Assembly (NCBI GenBank): GCA_944342015.1
Contig: CALVMC010000002.1
Span: 124,001 to 188,000, forward strand
Direction: 5' to 3'
DNA length: 64,000 nt
Source: an uncultured Clostridia bacterium
GTDB taxonomy: Bacteria; Bacillota; Clostridia; Christensenellales; CALVMC01
In this document: positions 3,466-47,594 of the stretch, one piece after another
How the letters are laid out: each line of letters starts with the position of its first letter
Position numbering within the stretch: position 1 is the first letter of the stretch
Position numbers and translations under genes: made by a program
Notes under the pieces: model-generated
Told to the model about the DNA's origin: nothing
Databases searched by the model: none
Seen by the model: only the letters and a program-made list of their open reading frames with translations

Positions 3466-3485
3466 TCTCTCCCCCGAATAAAACC

Positions 3486-3514
3486 ATTATATCATATTTA
3501 TTATATATAGGCAA
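3486..3514 (-). promoter_or_regulatory. sigma-A-type promoter of the GLUG-protein gene
   Basis: On the minus strand TTGCCT is followed by exactly 17 nt and a perfect TATAAT, about 20 nt before the start codon. It indicates that the GLUG gene can be transcribed separately from the giant gene upstream. I see no clear intrinsic terminator between the two genes. Confidence 0.7.
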
Positions 3515-3603
3515 TATATATATTTATTGTTTTTTCCGTTTTTTCCCTTTAAAAATTCCTTTCGATAACTTAAACAATTAATTTACCGATATAATTTTTT
3601 TTA

Positions 3604-6600
3604 TTATGCTTCGATATTAACTGTTAAAAGCTCGCTCGTTTCGTAAATATCGTATGTCTGAGCATTTTCCAATTTAATGCCGAGTTTAAGTTTGTATTTC
3701 TGTCCGCTGACGGGAACTGATACGCTCTGTCCTGCCTCGTTTATAAAACCGAGTACGTTGAGATAAATATTCTGCGTTATTTTATCTGCCCCGTCGCCTA
3801 TGCTAAACTCGCAAAATACGGAAAAGTCGGAATAATTTTTAACGGTAATTTCCGTAACTTTTTCTCCGTTCGAGCCTACAACCGAACTGAAATTAAGTAT
3901 TGAAATGGTAACGGTAAGGACTACCTTCTTTCCGCCCCTGTCAAGGGTAAGGGTAAGTTCTGTTGAATTTTGACCGTTTTTATAAGCGTTTTTAACGGTC
4001 TCTTCTACCGTTTTACCGCTTTCCTTACTCTCGAATACTGCGTTGAAAGAATAGTTTTTACCGTCTATTTGCAGTATAAAGAAGGTCGGAAGCTCTATAT
4101 TATAGGGATTTACCGCAAGGCTGTTTAAAGGCGAATTTTCGTACATGAAGTCGCTGTCAGTTAAACTGTCGATTATATAAACCGTTACCGTTACCTGCTG
4201 ATATCCCCCGAAATCGTCCCCGCAAAGCACGTTAAAGTAGGCAACCTCATAACCTCTATCGCCTATAACGGTTTCTCCCAAAGTTCTGTAATTAACAGAC
4301 GAATATTCCCATTTGATATTGAGGTTTTTACCCGTGCCGTCCGTAAACATAACGCTGAGAGTATCTGCAAGTTCATTGGTTTTCTGTTCGTATACGACAG
4401 GACTTGTCGAGGCGATTATCTTGGTATCTGCAATTACTGTAATTTCAAATTCCTGACTTAAAATTGCGTTGCCTAATACAAGAGTTGCCGTAAACTCGCC
4501 GCCTTCGTAAAGAGCTGTTTCAACGCCGTTCTTTTTGAAATTCCTTATTGCCATATAAGGAATCGTACCTACCGTTCCGTTTCTGAATTTAACTGCATAG
4601 CTTGTAAAGGTTGCGCCCTCGTAAGGACTTATATTGATTTCGCTTGCGATTAAGCTTTCGACGACTTTATTTAACAAGGTTACATTTGCATTTGTTATAG
4701 CCGTATAGGTTTTTCCGTTTGCCGAATAGGAAAGATTAACTTCTACCGCCACCGTCAAATCGGAACTTGCTGTTTTTAAAGTATTTATATTATCTTTAAT
4801 AACATTTTCGGCGTCTTTTGCAAAGAAGGCTTCGAATGTATATGTTTTTCCGCCCGCAACGATATCGATAAAGGACGGGAAGGATTTAAGATTATACATA
4901 TCGAGAGTATAACTTAAAGCATTTGCTCCGTTTTCAAAAAGTTTGGTCGTATCTATTTCGGTATAAGTGAATTCCTTTTCAAAGCCGTTGAAATTGCCTT
5001 TGATTTTCCCTTCCGAAATTTCTCCCCAGACAGGCCTTACTCTTTCTTGCCGTCCCGAAAACTCTGCAATAACCTCTTGCGGCAATTCGTCAAAGGAAGT
5101 AAATGAAGTAATTTCCTCGCCCGAAAGTGTGTAAATTTTACCGAGCAGACTTGCCCCCACCGAAATCTTGTAGTATACATACTGAGTTAGCGAGCCGACT
5201 TTAAACTCTAATCTTACGGTAAATGTTCCGCCCTCTTCCGTTATCGCTTTTTCCGTAAACTGACCTTCATTTACCGTGCCGTAAGCAACCGCTGCCGGAA
5301 TAAAGCTATGTGTAGTGCCGTCATTGAATGATGCGACATAAACGTTAGGCATACCGCTCACAAAATCCGAATAACTTTCATAAACGACGGTGTTTTCGAA
5401 GAGATTTGTATTTCTGTCGTTTTCGGTAAACAGCGCACTCACCGTTCTGTCAACCGTGCGGACGGGAACATTCAATCTCTGATATCCGCCCTTTTCGTTT
5501 CCGAATACCGCATAGATATTGCTGTAAGTTTTAGTAGCAACGCTTACATTCAACTCGATAGGAACGAGATTGTTTCCTTCGAGTGCATACCAGCTTGCGT
5601 TGAAAGTTCTCTGCGTTCCGTCTGTAAAGTATACCGTAATTTCGTTCGGGAATACTATATTTTCAAACGGGTCGAACACAAGCTCTTCGTATTCGCAATT
5701 TGCCGCAACTCTGTCGTATACGGTTACCTTTATAGATTTAGTCTGATATCCGTAAACGATATTTCCCACTTTAAGAGTTGCCGTAAACTCTCCGCCTTCG
5801 TATCCGTTAATGTAGTTCGAAGTAATATCGCTTATATCCCAGACAGGCGTTACGGTCATTTTTTCCGTGCCGTTTACGGTAATTTCCAAGGACGAGGGAT
5901 AATTATCGATATTTCTGGGATCAGACTCGTACGGGTCTATAACTATGTTATTTACATTGCCAAAGTCGGTAATTACCGCAGGGTCTATAATTATTCTTGC
6001 AACCGCACTCTGATAGCCGCCTGTTTCGTTTCCTGCCGAAAGTCCTATTTCGAATGTTCCGCCGAGATAAAGTTCCTTTCCTGCAAGGCTGTTTTTGAGT
6101 GCGGAAGTGTTCCATGAACTTACCGTAAGCACTCTCGAAGAGCCGTCTTTGAATATTACGCTGACCTTTTCGGGATAACTCGACGCACTGAACGCAGAGC
6201 GTGCGGAATCAAATACATTGAAGCTGTCCGTTAAGGTAATTACTTCTTCTATTATCTTGCTCTTAATAAGTATCGGCAGATTTACGCTCTGTATATTCCC
6301 TGCTCTGTCCTTGATTTCGGCAACCGCATAGGTTATACCGCCTGCATAGCCGTAGCTTATAGTATTAAGGTTCCAGCTTTCAACCGTCCATTCTTTTGTC
6401 GTATTATCCGCAAAGCCCAATATAACGGTATCGGTATAAAGTTCTTGATTTCTCGGATTGTTTGTATCGTCGTACGGGTCGAAGCCGTCTTTAAACAATT
6501 CGCTTGCACCTAACATGGAAACAGAAGTTGCGATTCTGTTTTTAAATGTTACGGGATAATCTATTTCCTGCTTGACTCCGTTTTTACCTGTTATTATAAG

Positions 6601-9600
6601 TTTTGCAAAGTATATGCCGCCTTGCGCAGCGTCGGAAAGGGAAGTTACGTCCCAAACTATATCCTCGTTTGCAATCTCGATAGTATAATCGCCTGAGTTT
6701 ACCGTTATATCTCTGCCGTTAAGCTGCCAGATATCAGACTCTTCGAATCCCATATAATTTTCGTCGAATACATCGAATACGATATCCCCGACTCCGTCAA
6801 CCTTATCGTGAGTTATAAGGGCATTTTCAACTATTACGGTAAAGCTGTCTTTTACATATCCTAAGCTGTCGTCTCCGAGCCTTACGCTTATAACATATTC
6901 GCCGCCCGTAAAGCTGTCGTTTACATTGCTTAAATTGAACTGTACCGCCATTTTATACTGTTTATCGCTTCCCTTGAACTTAACAGCCGCATACATAGGA
7001 TAGTTGTTTATATCGACTGCCGAGTATCCCGTCATAAAGGGATTAAATGTAAGGGTACTGTCCTCAATATCGTATAGTCCGCTTTCGGGATTAAGGTATT
7101 TTATTTCGCTGATTTCGGCAGGAAGTATGGTTACCGGTATATTTTCGACAAGATAATATCCCATATCGCCATTACCCATACGGGCGCTTACATAGTATGT
7201 TCCGCCGCTTAAGGTTCTCTTTACGTTTGCGGTATTGTACCATCTCTGAACCTTGAATGTAGTAAGTCCGCTGTCGGTAAAGTACCCTTGAACGGTATCC
7301 GGGAATACTATGTTTTCAAATACGTCAAAGACAAGCTGTCCGTCTGCAATTCTTAAAATTTGTCTTTCGTTGACCGCTCTTATCGGTACTTTGACCGAAA
7401 TACTTCTGAACATACCGTCTGAGAATGTGTATATAGCATATCTGTCATAAGAACTGTTTTCATCATCGCCGTACTCATAACCTTTACCGTCGGGGCCCAT
7501 ATCCCACTTGGAAGTATGTGTGGAATACTCGCCGTATTTAACGAGTTTAGAGCCTACAATTTGACCATTGTTAATTAAGTTAATTTTAACGGTAACCTCT
7601 GTCGGCAGTTTATCCCCTACCGTATAGGTTAAAGGTAAAGTCAAGCCTTCCGCTGTTAAATAAGGTACATCGTTATTTTCCTGATTTGCAACTTGAATTG
7701 CGTTTGTAACCCTTAATGTCGCATATTTATAAACTGCGCCCCTGACATAACCTAAAAGCAAATAGACGGCATCGGCTTTTGTAGTATCGATTTCGCCGTG
7801 CAATACCCAGCTTACGGTAACTTCGCTTGCAAAAGCGCCTTTCCCCCCTGCTGCAAACTTATAACCTGCGTTTGTATTTATTCTATGGAACCCGTAATTT
7901 GCAGTCAAATCTTCTAAACAGTCGTACTTGCCGCTGTTGTCGGTATCGAGATCGAGATAGCTGTTTGCTATAATCTCTTTTGTTTTTATAATATTGGCTT
8001 CGGTTAATTTTTGTATAGCCTTACTACTATCTTCGGGAAGTGAACCGTAATATTTCCCTGCTTCAACAGCATCATTTCCTGTTTTATTGATAAATGTAGT
8101 CGACGGCATAAAGTCTATCGGGTCCACGTTAATGTAAAGATTAAAGTCGTTAGCTTCCATTGTAAAGCCCGCATAATTTGGATCTGTACTATAATTTAAA
8201 TGACCGTCAGAACTTGCATTGTGATCGAATACAATATTAATCCCTTTAAGTCCCCCTGCATAAAGGTAAAGCTGAACATAAAATGCGCTGTTTGAAGTGT
8301 AGTAATACGGTAGCGGCAAAAAGGAGTTAACCAAAAGTCTTGCAGTATTACCGGTTATGAATGTCATATGACCTGTCATACTACCCATTCCGCCCATATC
8401 CAAAATAAAACGGATAACGTCGTTTGCAAAGTCGTGTGAGTAGGGGTCGTTAGTTGAAAGCATATTGTGAATTGAGCCGATAAGCTCACAAACAAGTGCG
8501 CAATTAAGCTTTAACTGAACAACCGATTCCAAAGAATTGCCGTCTATTATTTTAGTTGTAAGCGTGTTGTCTAAATAAGCGTCTGACTCCGTTGAAATTG
8601 TTAAATCCTTGCCGTTTACCTTTGCCACTATTTTGCTGTCCGAGTAATAGGTAATGCCGTCAACATAATCGGTGCTTTCTGGCAGGTTAAACTCTCCGCT
8701 TACAGTCTCCCCTTCGAAGCCGTCATACACTCCGCTGAGTCCAAGCCCGTCGATAATACCGCTCTTAATTGCCTGAGTAAACTTGTTGACCGTTGCGGTA
8801 AGTCCCGTCTGGATTTCCGAAAGTCCGCTGAGTAAATTATTTAGCGAAAGGGCAGGCAGAACTAAAAATTTATTTATTATACTATGAAGGAAAGTATCAC
8901 TAAACATCCATCCCAGCACTCCAAGAATTATTCCAACAGGTCCTAAGATATTAATAGTTATAAACCCAATTCTTAAACCCAAAACAAAACCTATTCTTAT
9001 GCTATCCATATATATTTGCGATAAGCTTTTGCCGATAAGAACATGGACATCTTCAATAGTTAAATATGTAGCTGCGCTCAGATTGTTCGCCACATGTATA
9101 TGTAATAGGTGTTTCGAGTCTGCGCCTCCCACTTTATTCATATCGTAAATGAAGATTAGCGGATTATCTCTTTTTTTGTTGGGACCGTAAGATCTGTTAG
9201 CAACACGTGAGCCGAAGTATATCGTTGCCAAAAATCCTGTGTATTTATTACCGTCGTATTCGATATCTTTGTTACTGCTTCCGTAAATGCCGTCGATAAA
9301 GCCCTGTATCAGACTGTAAACATCGAGATAGTACTCGTCGCCCATCTGATATCCTGCAACTATTCCGCCGAATTTATTCAGTCCTTCTGTTACGATATTT
9401 ACATATGTTCCTGTCTTGGTTTCACCTTTCGGGAAATTGAATATATTCTGAACAGTGCTGCCGTTTGTCGCAACCGCAAGGTGTTCTATATTTAAAGAGA
9501 ACCTGCTTATCTGAGCTTCCGTGCCGGTATTTGCCGAAAGATTTAATGCTAAATAAATACCCAAATTATCGTCCTGTACTCCGTTTTCTTTTAAGTTAGC

Positions 9601-12600
9601 GGTAAATGTTTCCGTTACATCGCTGCCGTTTGCAGCTATTTCTATAAGAATAAAATCATCTATTTCCGATTTTGTGATTTTTTGACCGACTACTTCATCT
9701 CCTTCCTTTATAGCCTCGGAACTTTCAAATCCTCTTAAATCAATTTCTAATCCTAAAAGATACATAAGCTCGGCAATTAAAGTTGAGTTAATCTTTATGC
9801 TGTAATGTTCTTCATTTATTCTGTTATATACTTCATCTGAAAACTCTATTATAAAAGCTGCGCCGCTCTCTCCTGAAAGAAGCTGTCTTACCGAAGGCGT
9901 GTTGGTAACTTCAGTTATTTCTTCTTCGTCGGCACTGTCGCTATCCGTATCGGGCGCAATACCTTCCTCTCCTACAAGCATATCGACAATATCCATAACG
10001 AGTTTACCCGTTATCATATCGGAAATTAAGGAAGTAGCCTCGTTGAGATAACCTTTAATCGTTTCGAGAATGGATACTATCGGAAGACTTATTACTTTAA
10101 ACTCGAAATCAGCATGCCCATGTTTTCCGGCAGATAGAAACTGTGTAAAGAGTATACCGAGCCTTACATAAAGTGTATTCGGGTCGAGTCCGTTTTCTTT
10201 TAGCGATTGAGTTGAGGAATCGTAAGACTTGCCGCCCGAATAATACAAGCCTAAAACCACATCGCTAGTAGGAGTTGCGATGTTTTTGCTTATTATCTCA
10301 TCGTTATCTATTAATTCGATAACCATACTGCTGTTACTTAAATCTGCAAAATCAAGGTCTATATCGATATATAGCGATAAATCGAGCTTATCGTTTCCGA
10401 CAAAATTAATGTTAAATGTATCGGTTAAATAACTTTTGAAAGCACCTAAAAGCATTTCCACAACGGCGCCGAGCGGCCCTTCGAGAAGAGACTGTTCGTA
10501 TAAATCGCCGCCGAGATTGATTTCCGTGCTGAATTTAATGCGTGTTAAATCGCTTAATAAACTGTAATCGTTAATATTTATTCCGTTACTTATAAATATA
10601 GTGCTTCCGCCTGCGCTGTAATAATCTTTTGCAAGTTCGAGCGACTCTATATCGAGATTGTAGGTAAGTTTTTTGTTTGTCGAAAACTCTTTTACAATCT
10701 GCGGTTTTTCCGCTGTGCCTTTGTTTGTATATTTAAAATATCCGTAATCGATAACAAGTCCCATATTGAACGCAGGTTTATCGAAACTTCCATGTATACA
10801 ATCGGAACTGCTATTTGAACATCTGCCAAGTTCAAGACAGGTGCGCGAAGTACAGCCGCAGGAAGGCATATAGTAATTGTATCCATCTATCGAAACCTTT
10901 CTTATATCGCAGGTCGAAGTTGAATCAGATGAAATTACAGCGTCTATTCCATAATATAAATCCAAACTCAATGTATCGAAAAGGGAATATAAAAGCGTAA
11001 TGTCGAGCGAGTCTTTAAAGTGAGTTGTATTCGAGCCGTTGAGTTGTCCTGCAAGTTTTGAAAGTGCGGGCAGCGCTTGTTGATAAGCGTTGTTTAATGT
11101 GTCGTAAAGTCCCATCGCTTCGAATACGAATTGCAAGAACTTACCGCCGACAGACACATTCATTCCGTTTTTAATTCCCATATAATTAGTGCCGCCTATT
11201 TTAATGGTCAGTCCTTTTTCTCCCGTAAGGCGGGATGAGACTATTACCCTGTCGTTTAAATCCACGCTCTCGCTGTCGTCCGTAATTTCTTCGATGTTGC
11301 CTGCGGAAGCAAGCAGTCCGCTCAAATCTATATTAAGCGAATTTACATATTCTACGATATTTTCGAAAATATCATAGTCTGTAATTTTATACTTTCCGAT
11401 ATTGAAAGTATTTATTTCGAGAACAGTGGTTGCAGTGCTTGCCTGGAAGCCGAATAACAGAATAGTTTGTGAAGTATCCTTTTTAACGACGGATAACAGT
11501 ATTTCCGTTCTCCTGTCTTCTCTGTCTCTTCCGCCGAAGAGATAATCTGCAATATAAAAGTCTATTTCTGCGTTGACTGCAAATTCTTTACTGAAATTAC
11601 TCGAAGTGAAATCTATATAGGAATTCGAAACATTGTAAAGAACAAGTTTCAGTAAATCTTGTATCCATATTTTCTCATTATTATCCCCTTGACTTGCGTT
11701 CAAATTACTTGAAATAGTACCTTTGAATACGATATGCAAATCTTCATAACTTATCCAATGGTCTGTAAATGTATGCTTCCCGTATGTATCCGTATAGCCG
11801 TTTTCCGTCCAGTAATCTTTTATTCCGTAATACTGTCCTTCTTTCGTTTGATAGGTTGTTGAATTTTGATATAATAAATGGTTGATTGGATAATAGACTT
11901 TATTATCCCACTGATTTCGATCAGCCTCGCTGAACTCTATTTGCTTTAAATTAAAGTCGGCGCTTATTACTATACCTTCAATATAAGTTGATAAAGACAG
12001 AAGCGGCTCTTGTGTTGAGTTGAGATTGTTTCCTTCAAGTAATATATCAATTTTCGGATAACTAACTCTTATATATCCGATATCGTCAAAACCTAAAAGC
12101 TTCATAAGATTCATGAGGAAGTTTGCCTCATTCCCGTCTTCGTCCGTATAATTATCTCTTAAAGACACGTTTAATACCGTATTTTCACCCGTTGTAATTT
12201 CTACTCTTAACAATAGACCTTTTATAATGTCGGCAAGTTTTTCAAAGGTATCCTTATCGTCCGGCTGAATTTGTACCATATGTCCGCTGCTTTGTTTGAA
12301 GTTTGCCGATTCCGTATTAAGCATATTTAAAAGGCTCTTCATATAAGTTGAAATATTACTCTCAACATCGAAAGGAATATAGAACTTTTCAATTCCGAAA
12401 GCCGTCAAATCAACAAATATATTTCCTTCGGTAAAGTATAATCTCATCGGGTTCAAATCCCAAAGATTGAGTACCAATAAAAGTTCGCTCTGATTGAGGG
12501 CAAAGGGATATATCCTTCCCGAAAGCGATAAAATAAGGTTCTGATTAAAGTTTTGCGCAACGACAAGTTCGATTAAATTGTCGAGATTTGCGCTGCCTGA

Positions 12601-24600: not shown

Positions 24601-27600
24601 ACTGTCGTAATATAAAGCGGTAATAAGCTTTAAAGTTTTATTTCCCGCACTCTCATTTAAAATATATAAATCCAAATATAATTCAAGTAACAAATATTTA
24701 TTTTCGCTGTTGATAATATCGTTAAGACTTATATTTGCTTTTAAGTTTGCTATCAGCCTTGTATCGAGATTCAGGTTCAGTTCCGGGAAAACGCTGACGC
24801 CGAGCATGGCTTTTAAAACTTCACTGAAAGCAATACCGTTATCCGAAGCATAATCGAAAGCGATTTCAGCCGTTGCCTCTACCGTGAAAGCCGCTTCATT
24901 ATAAGTTTTAAATTGAGTTTTATCGTCGAAAACTTCGGGATACCCTAAAACACGGTAATTACTCAAATTCGGCAAATTATTTACCCCGTTAAATGCTTTG
25001 AGATTACCGCCGAGGGAGATAACCACGCTTGAAGCCGCATCGGAAAGAGTTATATCTATACTGATAGCCTGAGTGTCGGCTTTAAATAAATTTTTAAGAT
25101 TGAGATTCAAATCGACAGATAAATCGGGTTCGCCTTCGGTAGCATTGGAAGTCAATGTTGTGCCGAGCAGAGCGGCTGCAAGAGAGAAAAGACCGTACTT
25201 CAAGGAAATATCTATAACTGAAAGATTTTCAGTCAAGTTAACCGATTTTAACATTTGTCCGATAATAGAGAGTAAATCCAGATCTTTAACGGAAGAAGAG
25301 CCGTTATTCTGTTCGCCGCCGTTTGTTCCGTCCGATTGGGAATTCAATTTTACTTTATCGTAAGACGCAGTCTGCGTATTCTGCTCCGAAGAATCGTCGG
25401 AAGAGAAGATACTTACCATCATGCCGTCGATTAAATCTTTAAGACCTATACCTTGAAGTTTTAATTTCGAAGGAGTATTTCCCGCACCTACAATTACAGG
25501 TTCGAGATTCATATAGATATACATACTGTCGTCGGTATAACTGTATAAAGCCGAAAGAACAGTTTTTGGAACGGAACCTGTGAGTTTGTTATCATATCCG
25601 TCCAAAGATATAATCAAATCGAGATATGTTAACTCGCCGTTAACTATGATACTGCTGATATCGGTAATTAAAGTTACATTTAAAGTAAACGATAATGCCG
25701 TGTTGATAAAATCGATACTTGTACTTTCGAGCAGACTTTCTATAAGAATGTTAGCCTGTTCGTCGGTAATCAGCGAAGCTATGCTTTGCGATAAGCCGGC
25801 AAGATTAAGGCTGAAAGTATTATTTGAATTATCTATTTCGAAGTCGAGAGAAACACCGACGGAAATCATCGAAGTTCTATTTTCTCCTACCACAATAAAG
25901 TTGTCTTCGGAAGGAGTCTGGATGCCGTCTCCCAAAGAAATAGCCAGATCGTAGAGAACGAGTCCCACAACAAACCCTTTGCTTTCGGAAGTAGCGTCTA
26001 CTCTGTGCAAGTCACCGAATTCGGTATCGCCGTCAACGACAATGTCATAAACGGATACGTCAATCTGACCTACCAAATCGGCAATAAAGTCAAAATCCTG
26101 AACTTCCGGCATAAACAAAGCTATTAATGAAATCAAAGCATTTGTAGAAACCTGCAATTTTATTTCATTAAGACTTACCGAAAAGAGAATAAAACTCGTT
26201 ATAGCGGTTTGAGTGTTTGAAGAACCCGAAGTATCGGATTGAGAGCCGCCGTCCGTGGTAATGTTTTCGGAATTCAAATTTGTATTTACATTAGAAACAT
26301 TCTGAGAATCAGCGCTTTCTTCGGTTTCATCGAAGCCGAGGAATTTAAGAATGTATTCTTCGAGAGGGAAATTCTCGTATTTTATTCCCGAAGAAGAGCC
26401 GCTTTCCGTTCCGAAAATCAAATCGGAAGTTACATACAAATCATAAGCGTCCTGATAAACATTATAATCAAGAGTAACGCCTGCAACATATGTAGTTATA
26501 GTACTGTCCATTGTATAGATATCGAGAGAAAGCTCTATACCGTGAAGAGCAGCAATAAGTACCTTGAAGAACTGTTTTGTAGCCTCTTCGTAGCCTTCGG
26601 CGTTTGAATCCATGGCAAGATATTTTGCCATTTCGTCGATTAAAGTATCGAGATTGGAAAGAATGTTTCCGACATTTATTGAAGCCCTTATGTCTATTCT
26701 TATAAGAGAATTGATTTCGGTGTTGGTGAATGTAAAATCACTTCCCAAATCGGGAAGAATACCGTTAAGGGCACCGTTAAAACCGTTTTTAAAAGCGGCA
26801 ATATCGAGTACTATGGAAGTATAAAGATTCAAATATTCTTCCATGCTTTCGGTATAGTCCTCAATATTGGGAACCGATAAATTAATTTCGGAAACATCGA
26901 AGCCTATATTGAGTTTATTGATTTGGGCAGTTAAAATATATCCTAATATTCCGAGTTTGAGCTGCGCTTCCAAGGTACCGTCGCCGAGAGCAACGGAAAG
27001 ATATGTATTGCTTGCGTCGATAGCGGGAAGAGAAAGATTCAACCCTAAGTATCTCATGAAGTTAGTCAATACCGAAGAAGCAAGAGAAGCTTTAATATTC
27101 AACTGATTGTCGAAACTTAAATCGACGCTTTGCAAAGCGGAATTTGCCGCAATTAAAATGGTATTGACCAAATCGGGGTCGAATCCGCTGCCGCCGCCGA
27201 GAGTGAAGTCTAAAATATGTTCGCCGCCGAAGAACCCTTCTTTGAACATTTCGTCTGCAATTTCAAGATAGCTGCTTATATCGATTTTAATTTTACCCAA
27301 ACCGAAATAACCGCTTTCTATGTAAAGCACACCGTCAATAATATATAAATCGAATTGAATATTTTTGGTTGTAGTGCTATTACTCTTTACATTGTTTATA
27401 CCGAGATAAAATTTTAAAGAAGTCAAATCGTTTAAATCGACAGCAAGCTTCAATGCTATTGTAAGCATCATACTGAAATCTTCTTCCGAACCTACGGAAG
27501 CGCTGTTTGTATCGGCGAGTTTTTGGAAAATCTGAGCCATTTGCAGATACTGTCTTTCCGAAAGATTTTTATCGAAAACGGTAAGCAAATAGTTCGAAAG

Positions 27601-30600
27601 ACTTTCGAAAAGTTCATTAAGCTGCGTAAAGCCTTTTTTCCCTTCGAACCCTATAAGAAGTTCGGTATCGAGAGTTATCTCATCGAGAGAACTGTAATCG
27701 ACGGTAATTTTATTGTTGTTGAAATCGTAATTTATGTCGGCAAGAGTATTATATTCCTCATCGACGAGATTTGAAAGAATACCCATACTTTCGCCGAAAT
27801 CGACTCTTATATTATAAAGTGACAAGAATACCGACAGCGGATTTTTAATATCGTCTTCAAAGACGATTCCCGTTTGGAAATTCACCGCAAGGTCGTTAAG
27901 TCCGTCCTCGTAATCCCAACCTGTAACGGACAAAGTAGTATCGTCGAGCTGAGGAAGTTCGATATTCAATCCCAAAGCCTTCAATGCAGCATTGAGACTT
28001 AAAGAAGCCACTGTAAGCGAAAAACTGTTCTTTTCCCAAACTATTACTCCGCCGCTGAAAAGAGCGGAAACGAGTTTCATAAAATCGACATATTCCTGTT
28101 TGTCTTCTTCGTTCTCGGAAGGCTCCGACGAAGAACTCTGATCTTCCGAAGAACCTGAGAAAGAAGAAAGCAAATTGCCTAAAATTTCATCGATATTCGC
28201 CTTTACTTTTAATTTTCCGATACCAAGCGCAGAGGCGTCAAGATACACATAGTTGTCTTTTATGTAGATAGCCAAAGTCTGAACATTGGTCTGACTTTCT
28301 CCCACAAAGTATTTTATTTCTATACCCCCTCTTACATTGGAAAGAAGATTGGAGAAATCGAGATTATTTATATCGAGATTGATATCGGCAAGTAAATCGA
28401 AGATAATTATGAAATTGGAATCGGCTTCTGCGATATTTATGTCGAAATCCAAAGCCATATCGCCAAGTAATCCGCCTAAAAGATTATTGAGCATCTGCGT
28501 CAGATTTTTTGTTGTCGGATTATCGATACCCATTTTGAGTTCGGCGCCTATATGAACCGATTGAGCGGAAATTTTACCGGAAAGAACATCTCCCAGATTG
28601 CCCAATGAGGAAATATTGCTATAATAATTTATCAAATAAGAGAGTACTATATCCTTTCTGAATAATCTGTCCGCCTCGCCGGTAAGAGCCGGATTATTAA
28701 ACCTTGCAATATCCTGTGCAGAATAATTGTTATTGAGCCAATTCGTAAAAGCCGAATCGGTATTGAATGAATTCATAAAATCGGAGCCGTAAGCGAAAGC
28801 AATACCCCATTTTCCGTCGAGATTGAAATTTAAACTCAGTTTATCGTTTTCGGAATTTTCGATAAGATTTACGCCGAGATCAAGATAGAAACCGCTGTTT
28901 TGGAGACTTTCGTCTTCTTCGAGTTTATTTATACCGAGTTTTAACTGAACGGACTTGAAAAGGTCTCCGTAAGACAAACCTTTAATAACGCTGGGCAAGG
29001 TGACGAAATTTCCGAAAAGAGCGATAAGATCCTGCATATCGGAAGCGGAAATATCCAAAGTAATACAAGCTTCGTTCCACCAATCGATAAGTTGTTTACC
29101 GTCGAGAATATTGTGAATGAGTGAAGCGAGATTGATTTTCCCCGATCCTTCCACCATAGTATCCGAAGTGTTTTCGGCATAGGAAAAATCATAAACCGAA
29201 GTTTTTTCCGCTTTTTCATATTCAATTATAGAAACATTGGAACTATCGCCCTTTAACATGGCAAGAAGAAAATCGTAAATATTGTTTAATGTTCCCGTTA
29301 AATCGAAACCTTCTATTTTTACTTTGGGAAAACCGAGTCCCGAACAATCGAGAACCAAATCCTTACTTTCCCCGAGATAATACAGCGATACAATTGGGTT
29401 CGAATAAGAATAATCGGTAACTTCGGCAATTTTGAGAGAAATGAAGTTTCCGTCGTTATCTTTAAGGTCAAGATCCGCAATCAACTGAAATCTGAGACCG
29501 TAGGTATCGCTGTCAAGTTTAATTTCGAGATCGCCCATACCGCTAAGTCCCGCAAGTTTAAGAATGGCAGGGCTTAAAAGGGAATTCAATGTAACCGTTC
29601 TCACGGTATTTCCGCCGACGTTATAAGTATTGACTACGTCGAGTTCACCTTCGAGCTGGAAATTAAATAAGCCGTAGGTGGTAAAATTAACGAACTCCGG
29701 AAAAACTATATTCAGTCTCGTATCGTTTTTTGAAGCATTGACAGTCTGCCCTTCTTCCACACCCGTGAATTTAATATTTGAAATGGAAAGATAATTAAGG
29801 AAAACATCGAGACTTATATTGAGTCCGTCTCTGTGTTGAGTTTCCCCGTCGAATTTATCTTCCAAGGTAAAACTGTTTTCCGAAGCGACAACGCTGCAAA
29901 CAGCCGACTGGAACATACCCGAGCTTAAAACCACATCGAAATTAACTTCGATTTTAGGAATGGTCACAGCCATATCGGAAGTGGAATAACCGAATAAATC
30001 TTCTATGACCGCATTAATATCGAAAGTTGTAAACAAAGTATCGAGTTTAAGACTGCTTGTTATTGTAGGAATAAGACCGATAACAAGGTTAACAACGGTT
30101 TTAACGTTTATTCCAAAGCCGAAACTTTCTACTACACCGTTCTGTTCGTAATAAACATTGGAAGAGCTTGCAAGACCGATAAGCATGGCAAGAAGTCCCG
30201 GAATATCCGAACCGAGCATGCTTTGCAGCAGTCCTTCGGCTAAATTCAAAGCCTCGCTGACAAGCTCGATAAGTTTATTTATATCGAGACCTTCGAGTTT
30301 TATTTTTCTGTTATCTGCGCCTAAATCGAGATATAAATCCTCGTTGAAATAATAAAAGCCCAATTCGGGAGAACGGACGGAATTATTGACTAAATCGGGA
30401 TTGTTCACGACATCCTCTATTGTATAAGAAGACAGCTCGTCTCCCGAGAAGAATTCCACGAGAACTTCGTTTTCCTCGTTTCTTACGCCGATATTTGCCG
30501 CAAGTCTGATTAAAGTATGATTCCTGTTTAAAATAACTTCGTTACCGTTTTCGGTACGTTTATTGTATTTGTCCCAAACTAAAAATATTTCAAAACTGAA

Positions 30601-30810
30601 TGTATCTGATTGTTCGTAAGAAAGAGCTTCGACAAGTTTATTGAAGTTGGTTGTCCCGTCGAAGTAATCGGAATCGGAAGGAGGATTCAAAGAAGGGTCG
30701 TCTTCCGGGTTGATAGGATTAACCGGATTGCACGCAACGAAAAATACGCAGAGAAAAACAGCGATAAGCAAAACTATTAAAATTTTGTTAAGCGTTTTAA
30801 ATTTATGCAT
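3604..30810 (-). CDS. giant repeat-built surface lipoprotein, 9,068 aa
   Basis: One uninterrupted frame of 27.2 kb. I place the start at the ATG at 30810 because GGGGGAATT lies directly before it; the frame is open 8 codons further upstream but that extension has no ribosome site. Residues 1-27 are a lipoprotein signal (basic n-region, long hydrophobic core, FVAC with Cys27), so the protein should be lipid-anchored outside the cell membrane. About 22 diverged units of roughly 320 aa follow (residues ~30-7200). Each ends in a signature like YYxxxxxYLDLSxxGLGxxKI, followed by a helix and usually a Ser/Glu/Asp-rich linker. Next come a hydrophobic segment (~7270-7300), an EF-hand-like loop (~7620), and about 12 Ig-like repeats of ~95 aa (~7810-9068). 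There is no LPXTG motif or other C-terminal anchor. I do not recognise the large repeat. Adhesin, stalk or surface-layer roles are guesses. Neighbours: GLUG protein downstream, small lipoprotein upstream. Confidence 0.9.
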   Translation of the reverse strand: MHKFKTLNKILIVLLIAVFLCVFFVACNPVNPINPEDDPSLNPPSDSDYFDGTTNFNKLVEALSYEQSDTFSFEIFLVWDKYNKRTENGNEVILNRNHTLIRLAANIGVRNEENEVLVEFFSGDELSSYTIEDVVNNPDLVNNSVRSPELGFYYFNEDLYLDLGADNRKIKLEGLDINKLIELVSEALNLAEGLLQSMLGSDIPGLLAMLIGLASSSNVYYEQNGVVESFGFGINVKTVVNLVIGLIPTITSSLKLDTLFTTFDINAVIEDLFGYSTSDMAVTIPKIEVNFDVVLSSGMFQSAVCSVVASENSFTLEDKFDGETQHRDGLNISLDVFLNYLSISNIKFTGVEEGQTVNASKNDTRLNIVFPEFVNFTTYGLFNFQLEGELDVVNTYNVGGNTVRTVTLNSLLSPAILKLAGLSGMGDLEIKLDSDTYGLRFQLIADLDLKDNDGNFISLKIAEVTDYSYSNPIVSLYYLGESKDLVLDCSGLGFPKVKIEGFDLTGTLNNIYDFLLAMLKGDSSNVSIIEYEKAEKTSVYDFSYAENTSDTMVEGSGKINLASLIHNILDGKQLIDWWNEACITLDISASDMQDLIALFGNFVTLPSVIKGLSYGDLFKSVQLKLGINKLEEDESLQNSGFYLDLGVNLIENSENDKLSLNFNLDGKWGIAFAYGSDFMNSFNTDSAFTNWLNNNYSAQDIARFNNPALTGEADRLFRKDIVLSYLINYYSNISSLGNLGDVLSGKISAQSVHIGAELKMGIDNPTTKNLTQMLNNLLGGLLGDMALDFDINIAEADSNFIIIFDLLADINLDINNLDFSNLLSNVRGGIEIKYFVGESQTNVQTLAIYIKDNYVYLDASALGIGKLKVKANIDEILGNLLSSFSGSSEDQSSSSEPSENEEDKQEYVDFMKLVSALFSGGVIVWEKNSFSLTVASLSLNAALKALGLNIELPQLDDTTLSVTGWDYEDGLNDLAVNFQTGIVFEDDIKNPLSVFLSLYNIRVDFGESMGILSNLVDEEYNTLADINYDFNNNKITVDYSSLDEITLDTELLIGFEGKKGFTQLNELFESLSNYLLTVFDKNLSERQYLQMAQIFQKLADTNSASVGSEEDFSMMLTIALKLAVDLNDLTSLKFYLGINNVKSNSTTTKNIQFDLYIIDGVLYIESGYFGLGKIKIDISSYLEIADEMFKEGFFGGEHILDFTLGGGSGFDPDLVNTILIAANSALQSVDLSFDNQLNIKASLASSVLTNFMRYLGLNLSLPAIDASNTYLSVALGDGTLEAQLKLGILGYILTAQINKLNIGFDVSEINLSVPNIEDYTESMEEYLNLYTSIVLDIAAFKNGFNGALNGILPDLGSDFTFTNTEINSLIRIDIRASINVGNILSNLDTLIDEMAKYLAMDSNAEGYEEATKQFFKVLIAALHGIELSLDIYTMDSTITTYVAGVTLDYNVYQDAYDLYVTSDLIFGTESGSSSGIKYENFPLEEYILKFLGFDETEESADSQNVSNVNTNLNSENITTDGGSQSDTSGSSNTQTAITSFILFSVSLNEIKLQVSTNALISLIALFMPEVQDFDFIADLVGQIDVSVYDIVVDGDTEFGDLHRVDATSESKGFVVGLVLYDLAISLGDGIQTPSEDNFIVVGENRTSMISVGVSLDFEIDNSNNTFSLNLAGLSQSIASLITDEQANILIESLLESTSIDFINTALSFTLNVTLITDISSIIVNGELTYLDLIISLDGYDNKLTGSVPKTVLSALYSYTDDSMYIYMNLEPVIVGAGNTPSKLKLQGIGLKDLIDGMMVSIFSSDDSSEQNTQTASYDKVKLNSQSDGTNGGEQNNGSSSVKDLDLLSIIGQMLKSVNLTENLSVIDISLKYGLFSLAAALLGTTLTSNATEGEPDLSVDLNLNLKNLFKADTQAISIDITLSDAASSVVISLGGNLKAFNGVNNLPNLSNYRVLGYPEVFDDKTQFKTYNEAAFTVEATAEIAFDYASDNGIAFSEVLKAMLGVSVFPELNLNLDTRLIANLKANISLNDIINSENKYLLLELYLDLYILNESAGNKTLKLITALYYDSISDNIYIDLTSIGLGNILKIEDSGLASILTDIVKDLLSDLLNPDGQQTENGTASNVNSIKNISSVVNLNGESETGSESDSGSDLSGIVQLSAETKQIIAISIASGVLNNLFNMLNMQYLGNVVNGAEISWGYYEITEDGNTKEDFRINLDIFYSDNGVRKGGISAEFNSISFSIYNEFSQKFGSDSMASNLVSNAVELGDVQDIRVKADLSVGIISTDGYDAAFDLSVLANNSTLASVANLISAIAVKIGGTVEDGKTSYKLQAQADLIAKFDLTYFDLGDLVRKILNGENLDFGAFIQESLLGIEAYIDFKLINDSGDSTIITNIASVYYNGNDIYLYIDMVGVKLKISDAFNINDIISDMFADSGDSDTVEGENGSAESDASNDDTSSSSSFDLRAFDAIFGALTSIDIESARLGISFGNNLLEYLFNFVLGYSNSMFTMNGMESDGNVSINFSNTGTDGNILESISAEIDFVKNNDDNTTESINYDIVLSNLTLPINTADDFDVLVSNKMGNLSDYSVFYDLNLGLSMFGSLDVHLTSDVNLTLILEQLLSSLGYDMPNITVGNAFTSSVELSIIANISFRDMTNEFGQNIRQAGIELLIPIFINLSGGTKKQFAIIYYTSLDDELWLDLSSFGLGNVIIPGLGLDEIVNDIIQPSGGSSSGGTSSSSGLGSISAELDVILNSQGLILSVSAGVITNMLKTLGVELTVPDFKNVQITIGTDTTQSDSITSIDEIVNVSNLGIGLKINFTDTTYIDLNIGNLAVNNKAYDIKGMKELTTATDSNGAETVKKWVSIADVKNISASLSLDMNFNTPQALKEYSFGPLIQKILDINIANDKDLFDLFFNSDLQSDTKFALGLDLDLSVGVNLSVEDFTRFFNLLSNSSRNDQENQEYEALAKKIFTSLSLVLKVYMAVGEGEKVDRNTDLLAAIYLTGTTVYVYAPDFDVKLKYTDDSLDLYKILLSALGIKEEEVASEVQNINKNIDLLNQQTSETEEDNMLQSILDTIYNINLKATGIDVNFVSTLLAELLDAFDIGTEPYDGVNKTNASVNIVNENGELFTLFDELGAEVEFLNSDNTSTGLKLGLYITGLGLSANKVLDTSVFGVLSDYKGALDANIYIATSGEIDFGINSNIINFSGILKNLLDTQDNINTTLTGRLSGVYILDLEVNLNLANLDNLELFLSLSKKGTDTNSLVLSIYYNGINGLTALDLSGLVDIPPIMIEGLTIGKFLSSSLNDLIFGNSEEENQEGQENDSSSENQGSSFNFDEFIDQLSGRLDLSVLNSMKVGSSSISYDYIAIGLNSVLLNSLIKFFLDDNLNDFVNLDSETNGLFSSLGFANIGFNFNGEKFDKFILEINLGEKMSEENSTVTGEKDSTYLYLNFTDGLTLKASNYETKFNASEYINLADVKALYLGASVDFSFDIPEDVLVGLKDVLGELIWGMGIDVSFAQSVDWDIKINLYGEILTQELVQKLIDSYKISDTGITKEILVDTILNSIFRLEVINENAQPGENKIILDLYYEGNSNRVYINLPVLNLKSYYDATDIKQSLKNLVLDMFNKENPTVTETEEANNNELNIADLINLIANINISSESLVVTTVTTLIDSAFSLFGLDLKYSLPDALCEASINFEPGGTRFSSIALDLTLTPKDGTIVTGGNGKDISMSLAFGGLAFDTVNIGASRIVFDKQGFTRLSSVYAGFSGGLKISTDEQSQNNDIVISGINIKDVLEKVFENNQSIGLDFAQNYQGDFNIDFQMKLNVSTIPGFLLNTPKGDSDEERREYNKALIQNLLEGGELYLALSYTYSEGGASSVEDIVKLYYFGNTFYLDLNEKFGLPKVKIKLSASELVNMLFFADNTSDEENTDGTAEGDNQASQTETQADSQNNGQSGSQDSTENPSDSDKNNTQNNSLNLSALSLLLAISGMEFTATLSQAFISKLLQAIGINIDIISGSSNSGTDSSGSETGNSDSESGASTGGQQNSSGTDNDYLFNFILIPTGVDENGNKVVFENTYLELYFDDIVLNTLNSVVKPQTDNFELVDINGIITINAQATVELNLLIDKNVDDSQNGKFTLGDILNKKPTTSADDEISYIPDVIIDALSNIFINVLNNVNETITLNIKANFSYNMITKAISDIEVYLELISKLNTGSSEVLLVLFYSYIDGEIYINAPVLSNIKFKIDNVGDLLNLFSNNSSDESSDTETGGESGSASESGENNEEENFIEKNIENIVAMLSSLNIKSTELSIYVASNLVSLLLDMLGIGFIKGDSIVTTGTGNNSAIDINTEASMSVNLFDKDISMDLGLSVQENNASVFGIGLNLSFNNYSIGAGKLNIKETFDYNNYNALSDIKNIEFNLEAKINPNSAPPEIKNILGEFSLLIDESFEGELVIRITALIPTPDLMSMFEGGKGIADIFNFNNLQLKLDILVNYDGMEESFLQAFFDASGAGTVYVDIPWFKLPNSNDYLKFYYTGLDLNSMLSSSGSSNDNENTEENKTEDEKTEEETEAEKNQLIADIISLIAGAYIDVGSDNKFSMSVKLASSFVSELSKVMKEHFDFDLNLGQIAGVDSSEVKLSLKDKCITYHMVNGGAVSENYFMYIGIGETKVNAAYLRNDGWYYPINYFDDISLSASVNLDLNYIGGEYGLGALLNGILGVSGNDAISDTVKLILGIKGTGYQNFSDALRLDLTANLNLRNLLKQGISIDDIEALVELYRISEDAGINTETLLLRVYIKDAVLYADVPMLNIVNVKIENLINVSLESSAEESDSNSDSASETESTEEKEDGIIKDDKGNLIVADKKFDLTAVLALLSQIYLKGNGNDSDLNNLIGVAFKGDILLQGLDLFGTMLYENLGIKLYEMSLINGTGKEVYLTDGSLDTSKEYLDGIYIKTGSGADEKIVGYAYTYEYKDSSGKEVKLIYKKVFNTSIPTVNGDIILSLDRKADGYRDLSASLNLGIASGETEIIEIGASVNNLAVQFSRSEIKLSKFNSNGHIIEGQFYSLSDYKPFNTDNYLYFDTQIVITGNESTGATLALQELFRILLDEEDYTTTSSLIFNVFESDQVYTINLSAAIKGLNIEQILKNAELKVEVFKNGTGSSNLVLFVYINLELGEIYIELPNNTVNAIRSDKIKIQNINLTGLSSMFESEEGTSGAGENNESESFFNEEGELKIDNKLIANLINGLNNITIIQNSVGLSISGDIIKYALLSASGLNMNVGTVEKDAQGNIDTSKLNKFGRLLHYVYTLIYGMELNLAYDKTVGSSFYNNLTASLSLSVRKTNNISNANFDKEGGKLSLDLNNIEVSTSEVSIYDSFDKSGFEIFDGKVGIALETTFKMNSEQGTIDLSDMIDGVLSKILNGYGAIPNGEEINLTLGTITGISSDYEEFVLNIYGDIDVLAYIESGLYAMLKNSELLVEIYCKLPEGYNLYIARVYIEQGIAYVYTDLIQGNNPLYGTDSPKLKINLLSAFYGNDYVEYTADGNVEFKQENEFIKIVKLIKNIEISENSLSISTVDKLLSIIDESIFDLHELFNESYLTEDKLDKIDRYLGSFNLNVDFTSGADEWISIGGIIGNSKPSGMTEYPKLDFGFAINTVDITINNGFFGSTGSITGQENFMTDEEKELYGDILSLDGISVYNKSEVTIDVKDIVFDLKNILADIDGNDHVLLQAIKNLSAALINIGGDDLSGTYTMEVLARVKTLFASEFSLSDIQLNLSLLKEKSGSTVKYLEVYLNDGVIYISLGDEAIPVLSGLFGGLQNIKLDLYSILSSLGINLYRANRYNMASSVTENVSTVTSTTSFIIENLGLLLSIIEEFKIDQGGFNLKLDSQFLSKIFDVLEDGLELNGLSKIIIDEVDLNLGINLYNYENVKNDYLTWSGFSQEQKDVYNSFRNYTISNSGTGSSVILSYENLTQKGSAVIDGENVEQSQYYLFNGSSLGFRFSPTSENNDAQFIPQNEENYKELNDENIVFDFDMSFDLGIQGNTVQDLPVDIFNILRGLFPEISGSANLDNLIELVVAQNFNQNLILSLSGRIYPFALNQSELLLVLNLWDLNPMRLYFTEGNIFVDLTAFGIEKFYIPFDVESNISTYMKSLLNMLNTESANFKQSSGHMVQIQPDDKDTFEKLADIIKGLLLRVEITTGENTVLNVSLRDNYTDEDGNEANFLMNLMKLLGFDDIGYIRVSYPKIDILLEGNNLNSTQEPLLSLSTYIEGIVISADFNLKQIEFSEADRNQWDNKVYYPINHLLYQNSTTYQTKEGQYYGIKDYWTENGYTDTYGKHTFTDHWISYEDLHIVFKGTISSNLNASQGDNNEKIWIQDLLKLVLYNVSNSYIDFTSSNFSKEFAVNAEIDFYIADYLFGGRDREDRRTEILLSVVKKDTSQTILLFGFQASTATTVLEINTFNIGKYKITDYDIFENIVEYVNSLNIDLSGLLASAGNIEEITDDSESVDLNDRVIVSSRLTGEKGLTIKIGGTNYMGIKNGMNVSVGGKFLQFVFEAMGLYDTLNNAYQQALPALSKLAGQLNGSNTTHFKDSLDITLLYSLFDTLSLDLYYGIDAVISSDSTSTCDIRKVSIDGYNYYMPSCGCTSRTCLELGRCSNSSSDCIHGSFDKPAFNMGLVIDYGYFKYTNKGTAEKPQIVKEFSTNKKLTYNLDIESLELAKDYYSAGGSTIFISNGININDYSLLSDLTRIKFSTEINLGGDLYEQSLLEGPLGAVVEMLLGAFKSYLTDTFNINFVGNDKLDLSLYIDIDLDFADLSNSSMVIELIDNDEIISKNIATPTSDVVLGLYYSGGKSYDSSTQSLKENGLDPNTLYVRLGILFTQFLSAGKHGHADFEFKVISLPIVSILETIKGYLNEATSLISDMITGKLVMDIVDMLVGEEGIAPDTDSDSADEEEITEVTNTPSVRQLLSGESGAAFIIEFSDEVYNRINEEHYSIKINSTLIAELMYLLGLEIDLRGFESSEAIKEGDEVVGQKITKSEIDDFILIEIAANGSDVTETFTANLKENGVQDDNLGIYLALNLSANTGTEAQISRFSLNIEHLAVATNGSTVQNIFNFPKGETKTGTYVNIVTEGLNKFGGIVAGYQMGDEYYLDVYSLIQGFIDGIYGSSNKDIEYDGNKYTGFLATIYFGSRVANRSYGPNKKRDNPLIFIYDMNKVGGADSKHLLHIHVANNLSAATYLTIEDVHVLIGKSLSQIYMDSIRIGFVLGLRIGFITINILGPVGIILGVLGWMFSDTFLHSIINKFLVLPALSLNNLLSGLSEIQTGLTATVNKFTQAIKSGIIDGLGLSGVYDGFEGETVSGEFNLPESTDYVDGITYYSDSKIVAKVNGKDLTISTESDAYLDNTLTTKIIDGNSLESVVQLKLNCALVCELIGSIHNMLSTNDPYSHDFANDVIRFILDMGGMGSMTGHMTFITGNTARLLVNSFLPLPYYYTSNSAFYVQLYLYAGGLKGINIVFDHNASSDGHLNYSTDPNYAGFTMEANDFNLYINVDPIDFMPSTTFINKTGNDAVEAGKYYGSLPEDSSKAIQKLTEANIIKTKEIIANSYLDLDTDNSGKYDCLEDLTANYGFHRINTNAGYKFAAGGKGAFASEVTVSWVLHGEIDTTKADAVYLLLGYVRGAVYKYATLRVTNAIQVANQENNDVPYLTAEGLTLPLTYTVGDKLPTEVTVKINLINNGQIVGSKLVKYGEYSTHTSKWDMGPDGKGYEYGDDENSSYDRYAIYTFSDGMFRSISVKVPIRAVNERQILRIADGQLVFDVFENIVFPDTVQGYFTDSGLTTFKVQRWYNTANVKRTLSGGTYYVSARMGNGDMGYYLVENIPVTILPAEISEIKYLNPESGLYDIEDSTLTFNPFMTGYSAVDINNYPMYAAVKFKGSDKQYKMAVQFNLSNVNDSFTGGEYVISVRLGDDSLGYVKDSFTVIVENALITHDKVDGVGDIVFDVFDENYMGFEESDIWQLNGRDITVNSGDYTIEIANEDIVWDVTSLSDAAQGGIYFAKLIITGKNGVKQEIDYPVTFKNRIATSVSMLGASELFKDGFDPYDDTNNPRNQELYTDTVILGFADNTTKEWTVESWNLNTISYGYAGGITYAVAEIKDRAGNIQSVNLPILIKSKIIEEVITLTDSFNVFDSARSAFSASSYPEKVSVIFKDGSSRVLTVSSWNTSALKNSLAGKELYLGGTFEIGLSAGNETGGYQSAVARIIIDPAVITDFGNVNNIVIDPYESDPRNIDNYPSSLEITVNGTEKMTVTPVWDISDITSNYINGYEGGEFTATLKVGNIVYGYQTKSIKVTVYDRVAANCEYEELVFDPFENIVFPNEITVYFTDGTQRTFNASWYALEGNNLVPIELNVSVATKTYSNIYAVFGNEKGGYQRLNVPVRTVDRTVSALFTENDRNTNLFENTVVYESYSDFVSGMPNVYVASFNDGTTHSFIPAAVAYGTVNEGQFTEKAITEEGGTFTVRLEFKVGSLTQYVYYKISVGASLLGKIYTLSGEEITSFTSFDELPQEVIAEFSGRQERVRPVWGEISEGKIKGNFNGFEKEFTYTEIDTTKLFENGANALSYTLDMYNLKSFPSFIDIVAGGKTYTFEAFFAKDAENVIKDNINTLKTASSDLTVAVEVNLSYSANGKTYTAITNANVTLLNKVVESLIASEINISPYEGATFTSYAVKFRNGTVGTIPYMAIRNFKKNGVETALYEGGEFTATLVLGNAILSQEFEITVIADTKIIASTSPVVYEQKTNELADTLSVMFTDGTGKNLNIKWEYSSVNYRTLGETVIGDRGYEVAYFNVLCGDDFGGYQQVTVTVYIIDSLTDSDFMYENSPLNSLAVNPYNIELPTFFILQIDGKNYSFNAVFESKESGKTVEETVKNAYKNGQNSTELTLTLDRGGKKVVLTVTISILNFSSVVGSNGEKVTEITVKNYSDFSVFCEFSIGDGADKITQNIYLNVLGFINEAGQSVSVPVSGQKYKLKLGIKLENAQTYDIYETSELLTVNIEA
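3700..7390 (-). repeat. array of ~12 Ig-like repeats at the giant protein's C-terminus
   Basis: Protein-level repeat of about 95 residues. The pattern is roughly FDPFENIxFPxxVxVxFxDG, then a Trp-containing strand (xxWDTSxI), GGxYTAxxxxG, GYQ, and a closing xVPVxVxDRxI. Examples lie at about 7320 (FENIVFPDTVQGYFTDSG), 5690 (FDPFENIVFPNEITVYFTDG) and 4600 (INISPYEGATFTSYAVKF). The all-beta pattern suggests bacterial Ig-like domains forming a rod. The copies are diverged at DNA level, so this is an old duplication. Confidence 0.7.
9100..30730 (-). repeat. array of ~22 unrecognised ~320-aa repeats in the giant protein
   Basis: Successive unit ends carry the same signature: YYFNEDLYLDLG near 30340, YYLGESKDLVLDCSGLG near 29370, YIKDNYVYLDASALGIG near 28250, YIIDGVLYIESGYFGLG near 27320, YYTSLDDELWLDLSSFGLG near 22720, YYNGINGLTALDLSG near 20970, YYFGNTFYLDLNEKFGLP near 19110 and so on down to about 9200. 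After each come a short amphipathic helix, an acidic Ser-rich linker, and a new unit opening with a SLSxxLLxxLLxxLGxxL helix and beta strands. Spacing is 900-1,100 bp. Copies are diverged in DNA, so these are ancient tandem duplications. I know no family name for the unit. Confidence 0.7.
10795..10915 (-). other. six-cysteine insert within one giant-protein repeat
   Basis: Residues ~6630-6672 contain six Cys in about 40 residues, including SCGCTSRTCLELGRCSNSS, in a protein with otherwise very few Cys. The spacing suggests a disulfide-bonded knot or a metal site. No other repeat copy carries it. Confidence 0.6.
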
Positions 30811-30852
30811 AATTCCCCCGTATTTAAAGCGCAATGCTTAAAATACATATAT

Positions 30853-30881
30853 ATTATATTACTGAGTGGCAATCAAGTCAA
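30853..30881 (-). promoter_or_regulatory. sigma-A-type promoter of the giant lipoprotein gene
   Basis: Minus strand TTGACT, exactly 17 nt, then TATAAT, about 43 nt before the chosen ATG. With the GGGGGAATT ribosome site it gives a short plain leader. This is near-consensus, so the 27-kb gene is probably well transcribed unless repressed. Confidence 0.75.
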
Positions 30882-47564: not shown

Positions 47565-47594
47565 TACTATACTCCCCCGCAACCGCTAAAAGCC

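Follow-up and report, generated by a model that had tools for sequence, protein, structure and literature searches.

A predicted giant surface lipoprotein built of ~285-residue repeats, conserved across several families of one bacterial order

As judged from sequence, a 27-kb gene in the draft genome of an uncultured Clostridia bacterium encodes a member of a conserved giant protein family that is spread across several families of one order and is not an assembly artefact. The comparisons support a real, conserved giant surface lipoprotein, and its function is best predicted, with about even confidence on our part, as that of a surface stalk tethered to the membrane and ending in an Ig-like tip at its distal end. 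The window, that is, the whole 64,000-nucleotide stretch of DNA analysed (G000:C2:124001-188000), comes from a draft genome of 1.44 Mb in 18 contigs, 85.6% complete, and this single gene makes up 1.9% of the assembly (27/1,441 kb).

The gene, its expression signals and its anchor

The giant lipoprotein gene (3604..30810 (-)) reads from an ATG at 30810 as a single frame of 9,068 aa (995 kDa, net charge about -691) with zero internal stops; a TTG at 30834 is also in frame, and 3604..30834 (-) is open over 9,076 codons. An unbroken orthologue of 9,109 aa, 94.1% identical over 9,057 aligned residues, was found in G001, a genome of the same genus. The putative promoter TTGACT-17-TATAAT (30853..30881 (-)) has 11 of 12 consensus bases, and although a promoter scan was not significant by itself (3 sites found vs a mean of 5.5 in shuffles), both hexamers are identical in G001 despite changes in the 17-bp spacer. 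The ribosome-binding site GGGGGA (30814..30819 (-)), 3 nt upstream of the ATG, is also identical there.

Residues 1-27 (30730..30810 (-)) form a signal peptide, with a hydropathy peak of 3.11, that ends in the lipobox FVAC at residues 24-27; after the hydrophobic core, ILIVLLIAVFLCVFFVAC fits a lipobox with Cys27, and the orthologues have lipobox-like starts. By its signal peptide and lipobox cysteine the giant protein qualifies as a bacterial lipoprotein, lipidation itself being predicted. A first-pass annotation of this DNA had read one intact frame, a consensus promoter, a strong ribosome site and a lipoprotein signal, and the four readings stand. The C-terminus, YETSELLTVNIEA, shows no LPXTG and no terminal hydropathy peak, which speaks against a wall-anchored adhesin. 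LpxC and Omp85 were both absent from the own genome, while they were found in 4/14 and 7/14 control genomes, respectively; this is consistent with a monoderm cell, and the absence is not firm because the genome is only 85.6% complete.

Giant frames are conserved within the order

The frame is under purifying selection, in line with the selection that had been claimed from its intactness: between the window and G001, dN/dS was 0.133 over 9,057 codons, with values of 0.04-0.24 in most 500-codon stretches. A frame broken in related genomes, named beforehand as a finding that would overturn the reading, was looked for and not encountered; G001 is intact, and each of the 13 other orthologues read has a single frame, the lengths ranging over 6,203-11,348 codons.

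Of 121 relatives searched with a profile built on 18 window units, 25 gave a match at E <= 0.001. A broader profile, made from 85 units of 14 genomes, found matches at E <= 1e-5 in 111 of the 396 genomes of the order (84 of the 329 good-quality ones; 29 of 142 genera). The matches fall in families f1, f3, f6, f13, f16 and f24, plus one borderline f8 genome. A sample of 291 genomes of the class, some of which also belong to the order, gave the own genome as the sole match at E <= 1e-6. Homologous open frames of at least 6,000 codons are present, among the matches listed, in at least 48 genomes of the order, and those listed span 6,203-11,674 codons (median 9,118); shorter forms occur in family f13 (about 2,749 codons) and in one f6 genome (2,409). 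The plan of lipobox, repeats and Ig-like units is shared by 14 of 15 proteins read, from five families, G006 being the one without an Ig unit; the same 15 proteins carry 12-22 repeat units by the A5 profile, and 14 of them have 3-19 Ig-like units. For the G077 orthologue, MRRLKVALLFVLMLCLVTGALVAC lies near the frame start; its length of 7,142 aa, counted from a downstream Met, is an underestimate, and the positions given for its repeats and Ig units are displaced.

An apparent match in G009 was rejected, as it reflected signal-peptide similarity only, in an unrelated 1,290-aa lipoprotein. As a separate observation, dS between the window and G001 declines along the gene, from about 0.5 close to its 5' end to about 0.09 close to its 3' end, suggesting an inter-lineage recombination tract.

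A proposed membrane-tethered stalk with an Ig-like tip

More specifically, we propose that a lipidated Cys27 would hold the protein in the membrane of a cell that probably has a single one (monoderm), that 23 repeats would form, as beads, a long stalk across the wall, and that this stalk would carry the Ig-like array outside, where the array may bind a surface or polymer. The partner giant described below, with its C-terminal membrane helix, probably acts at the same surface. At about 4-5 nm per bead and 3.5-4 nm per Ig domain, the whole would measure ~100-150 nm. The reach far outside the cell suggested by the first-pass annotation is plausible. The stalk reading is supported by the intact frame, the lipobox, the G001 orthologue, the dN/dS values and the giant frames in at least 48 genomes, by the plan shared in 14/15 proteins, the linker composition and Big_4 scores over the cut-off, and by the absence of LpxC and Omp85, the adjacent partner gene and the conserved promoter hexamers and ribosome site. 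Several observations, some of them taken up with the data below, count against it: the divergence and frozen order of the repeats, a hydrophobic junction that a simple stalk leaves unaccounted for, a predicted two-unit model that is poor for bead-to-bead geometry, and the incompleteness of the genome, which weakens the absence of LpxC and Omp85.

The ~285-residue repeat and its predicted fold

The repeat is a domain without a match in the Pfam, NCBIfam and PDB sequences searched. A Pfam scan of 150 units returned no consistent family (24 families, each hit by no more than two members; best E 0.0012), NCBIfam gave nothing for the repeat region at E <= 1, and PDB sequences gave zero matches up to E 10. 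Condensation, adenylation and ketosynthase domains had no Pfam or NCBIfam match in either half of the protein. The earlier description of the main part as unlike peptide synthetases or adhesins is sound for the synthetases, with no Pfam family over the cut-off and no NCBIfam match in that part; for adhesins it holds for the repeat domain, but the C-terminal Big_4 Ig-like array is typical of surface proteins.

The A5 alignment used for modelling comprised 150 of 270 non-redundant units; those of G001, being near-duplicates, did not enter the structure alignments. Given these 150 rows, of which the window supplied 9, AlphaFold2 predicted a unit of G084 as a curved sheet of 11 strands plus several helices (pLDDT 84.2, pTM 0.76). 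For two-unit models, overlapping pairs (A2) were misaligned and discarded, and non-overlapping pairs (A3) stayed in register; the resulting window model was poor (pLDDT 62.6, pTM 0.44), its confident parts lying mostly in the second half of the units. Averaged over the 150 units, the strands alternate between hydrophobic and polar residues to a degree that none of 2000 within-strand shuffles reached, and the alternation also holds for the 9 window units alone.

This predicted fold raises the alternative that each bead is a carrier of a hydrophobic, lipid-like ligand, bound by the hydrophobic inner face of a curved antiparallel sheet, and that the membrane-tethered array stores, scavenges or passes lipids, a reading that we regard as unlikely but deserving some weight. 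The modelled sheet of 11 strands plus helices and its alternating strand faces would suit such a role, and the unit shows middling similarity, among many other folds, to lipid-binding ones such as apoB-100, OSBP-related domains and SPLUNC1. The same alternation is expected, however, in any closed barrel or two-sheet sandwich; a lipid-binding half-barrel would show it, and a closed barrel around a packed core would show it just as well. Foldseek against the PDB and viral models found none at E <= 0.001, the best E values of 0.14 (PDB) and 0.014 (viral) not being significant, and SPLUNC1 reached E 0.3. The top VIA row was 3msw, a protein of unassigned function (Z 8.0, rmsd 4.8 over 128 residues), followed by apoB-100 (Z 7.7), many rows of outer-membrane barrels (Z about 7) and OSBP-related domains (Z about 5); the VIA notes give scores of this level as typical of models without a clear match. 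LolA/LppX, AsmA and VPS13 were not among the listed Foldseek or VIA rows, a negative that covers those rows only, and AsmA/VPS13-like families had zero Pfam matches in the 150 units, a search that remote homology could escape.

Bridge-like lipid transfer proteins and AsmA/TamB are long chains in which antiparallel beta units, hydrophobic on one face, recur (the repeating beta-groove). The window protein is likewise long and made of repeated beta units with one hydrophobic face; unlike them, its repeat has no Pfam match, its many units are parted by low-complexity linkers, which speak against a continuous conduit, and it has a lipid anchor rather than a transmembrane helix, with no outer membrane evident.

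Repeat units, linkers and unit order

By iterated profile, the array comprises 23 repeats of ~285 aa each, the first and last partial, over residues 101-7206 (9193..30510 (-)). Repeats 1-8 span residues 101-182, 232-511, 544-881, 887-1189, 1221-1491, 1518-1798, 1825-2105 and 2141-2435; repeats 9-16 span 2448-2726, 2731-3038, 3061-3310, 3323-3628, 3632-3924, 3959-4262, 4275-4552 and 4561-4826; and repeats 17-23 span 4837-5212, 5219-5533, 5540-5838, 5851-6157, 6207-6489, 6579-6923 and 6954-7206 (all (-)). The count depends on the profile (23 iterated, 21 window-only, 21 with A5). Mean column identity between repeats is ~20% (18 units), and self-BLAST of the giant protein detected zero repeats because the units are too diverged, whereas profiles did detect them. 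Together with 10 Ig-like units of ~86 aa, they make up the two classes of internal repeat that had been noticed at first pass. The linkers are mostly, though not in every case, acidic and of low complexity, with 62.8% S/E/D/N/G/T/Q vs 48.8% in the whole protein.

Unit order was examined by reciprocal best hits between units in 17 protein pairs. It is colinear within f16 (20, 21 and 20 pairs, tau 1.0), f3 (11, 9 and 12 pairs, tau 0.96, 1.0 and 1.0) and f24 (13 and 12 pairs, tau 1.0), where reciprocal-best units are mostly 25-45% identical. Between families, the order is partly kept for G000-G084 (9 pairs, tau 0.83, p 0.00085), G000-G016 (7 pairs, tau 0.71, p 0.03) and G000-G065 (5 pairs, tau 1.0, p 0.017); it was not significant for G000-G003, G000-G090, G016-G003, G016-G090 and G065-G095, and undetected for G000-G095, which gave 2 reciprocal best hits only. 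The array is therefore old and hardly reshuffled inside families. The frozen order may be passive, because diverged units recombine with difficulty; alone it is no proof of position-specific roles, and may reflect passive antiquity as well as such roles. In known surface proteins, stalks are often made of almost identical repeats whose number varies. Repeats of ~20% identity in an order frozen within families are unlike many of these, which counts against the stalk and fits also position-specific roles.

The long low-complexity linkers between many units could instead mark a precursor polyprotein, cut at the linkers into many separate secreted domains, and others have put forward that giant proteins may be processed (PMC13104272). 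A frozen unit order within families is what would be expected if the intact chain matters, and we consider the polyprotein improbable.

A Cys-rich motif, CGCTSRTCLELGRCSNSSSDC, at residues 6651-6671 (10798..10860 (-)), lies within repeat 22 of the iterated profile and outside any unit of the A5 profile. Beginning CGCx4CxxxGxC, it is present as a single copy in the window protein and a single copy in G001. The f16 orthologues of G016, G084 and G065 have 10-13 Cys-rich stretches each, mostly between repeats, and 135-204 Cys in all, and the remaining 10 orthologues have zero. One Cys-rich region had no Pfam match and weak PDB matches to cyclotides (E 0.06-0.8).

The Ig-like end and the hydrophobic junction

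The 10 Ig-like (Big_4-type) units occupy residues 7826-8882 (4165..7335 (-)). PF07532 Big_4 scored 32.6 bits against a cut-off of 22.1, in two stretches, when the C-terminal 1,268 aa were scanned alone, and 21.5 bits, just below the cut-off, in the scan of the whole C-terminal half. The likeness to bacterial Big_4 proteins thus lies in these C-terminal units, which differ from such proteins in being only ~1,060 of the 9,068 residues.

Between the two arrays lies a hydrophobic junction stretch at residues ~7274-7312 (8875..8991 (-)), the strongest hydropathy peak after the signal peptide. In G001, the junction (residues 7266-7317) consists of 52 uncharged residues with mean hydropathy 2.08, and the related stretch of the window is interrupted; weaker stretches occur in G071 and G090, whereas a long hydrophobic run free of charges was not detected at this place in the other 11 orthologues. 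Although this part of the protein changes quickly (dN/dS 0.56 at residues 7200-7349 and 0.35-0.61 over the zone 7000-8002, window vs G001), it is hydrophobic in both genomes. The first-pass annotation had taken the N-terminus as the sole anchor, a claim that goes beyond what the sequence shows, as the hydrophobic peak around residue 7281 may touch a membrane as well. It had been right on frame, anchor and selection, and had missed the family, the repeat fold, the junction and the partner gene.

Such a contact would make the protein a double-membrane tether, with the lipid anchor in the cell's own membrane and the junction inserted as a hairpin into another (of a neighbour, host or vesicle) or back into its own, in keeping with the uncharged stretch of G001 and its interrupted or weaker counterparts. 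To this we give very little credit, as the other 11 orthologues have no such stretch, the junction may be relaxed because the region evolves fast, and hydrophobic helices are also present inside the repeats. A wider scheme, in which a ~1-MDa lipid-anchored chain with ~23 hydrophobic-groove domains in fixed positions binds or relays hydrophobic ligands across a monoderm wall, may touch a second membrane through the junction hairpin and acts with the second giant, seems to us rather improbable. An assembly or gene-calling artefact, which the draft state of the genome might suggest, is refuted by independent intact orthologues and purifying selection, and we give it practically no credence.

Relation to known giant proteins

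Giant repeat-built surface proteins are a kind already known, and the closest that we found are Giant1-5 of Apilactobacillus kunkeei (PMC12863079): secreted proteins of 3,000-8,000 aa with imperfect repeats, whose genes follow one another in a 1.5-Mb genome and which are reported from two related-niche genera. They are described as having a Sec/SP1 signal and C-terminal DUF5776 domains; the repeats of Giant1-3 are mostly alpha-helical, Giant1-4 have N-terminal beta-solenoids, and Giant4 and Giant5 contain arrays of beta-sheet domains, which in Giant5 resemble beads on a string. The window protein resembles them in being giant, secreted, repeat-built and encoded by one of two consecutive genes, and Giant4 and Giant5 in its array of beta domains. 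It differs from what is described there (PMC12863079) in anchor, domains and distribution, with a lipobox, a different ~285-aa beta domain, a C-terminal Big_4 array and a family spread over several families of one order. DUF5776 had no Pfam match in the window protein, and on the N-terminal side, the place of the beta-solenoids, its repeat profile starts at residue 101.

Proteins of ~40,000 residues and more are described from uncultured Oscillospiraceae, these from animal guts, and Omnitrophota (PMC13104272); set side by side by description, they share with the window protein the giant ORFs of uncultured bacteria, and are about 4 times its size or more. No description of the window protein's family was found in the open-licence literature searched. 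New here are the repeat domain and lipid anchor, and that the protein is conserved in more than one family. Homologues of 7 to 11.7 thousand residues, built to one plan, occur in several families of the order, the main domain is unmatched in Pfam, NCBIfam and PDB sequences, the unit order is frozen within families and the protein is paired with a second giant; what giant surface proteins are for in uncultured Eubacteriales thus becomes directly testable on single expressed units.

A second giant gene and the neighbourhood

Directly downstream of the lipoprotein gene, on the same strand, starts a second giant gene (1..3465 (-)), 5,987 aa in all, which continues past the window. Its product has an N-terminal signal-like segment, GGFAG-type repeats and, at the C-terminus, a hydrophobic helix with KKRR behind it. 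Genes for secreted proteins that likewise end in a membrane helix also follow the giant gene in G065 (6,397-codon frame), G006 (4,344) and G212 (1,687), so that the pairing occurs in families f1, f16 and f6; the f3 and f24 loci read had no adjoining partner at a 400-codon cut-off. Five neighbour proteins at f6 and f13 loci gave no convincing match to the repeat profile. Near the short f6 form (L089 1276-3477 (-)) lie two single lipoproteins of ~340 aa, whose profile match is unconvincing and which could be single-bead relatives.

Elsewhere in the window, 39246-49682 (-) holds the genes of two adjoining proteins. One is a membrane protein of 2,778 aa that contains a very long coiled coil and whose C-terminus scores barely above the Pfam cut-off for Ribosomal_L27A; the other, of 695 aa, has a membrane-proximal part that resembles the first by eye.
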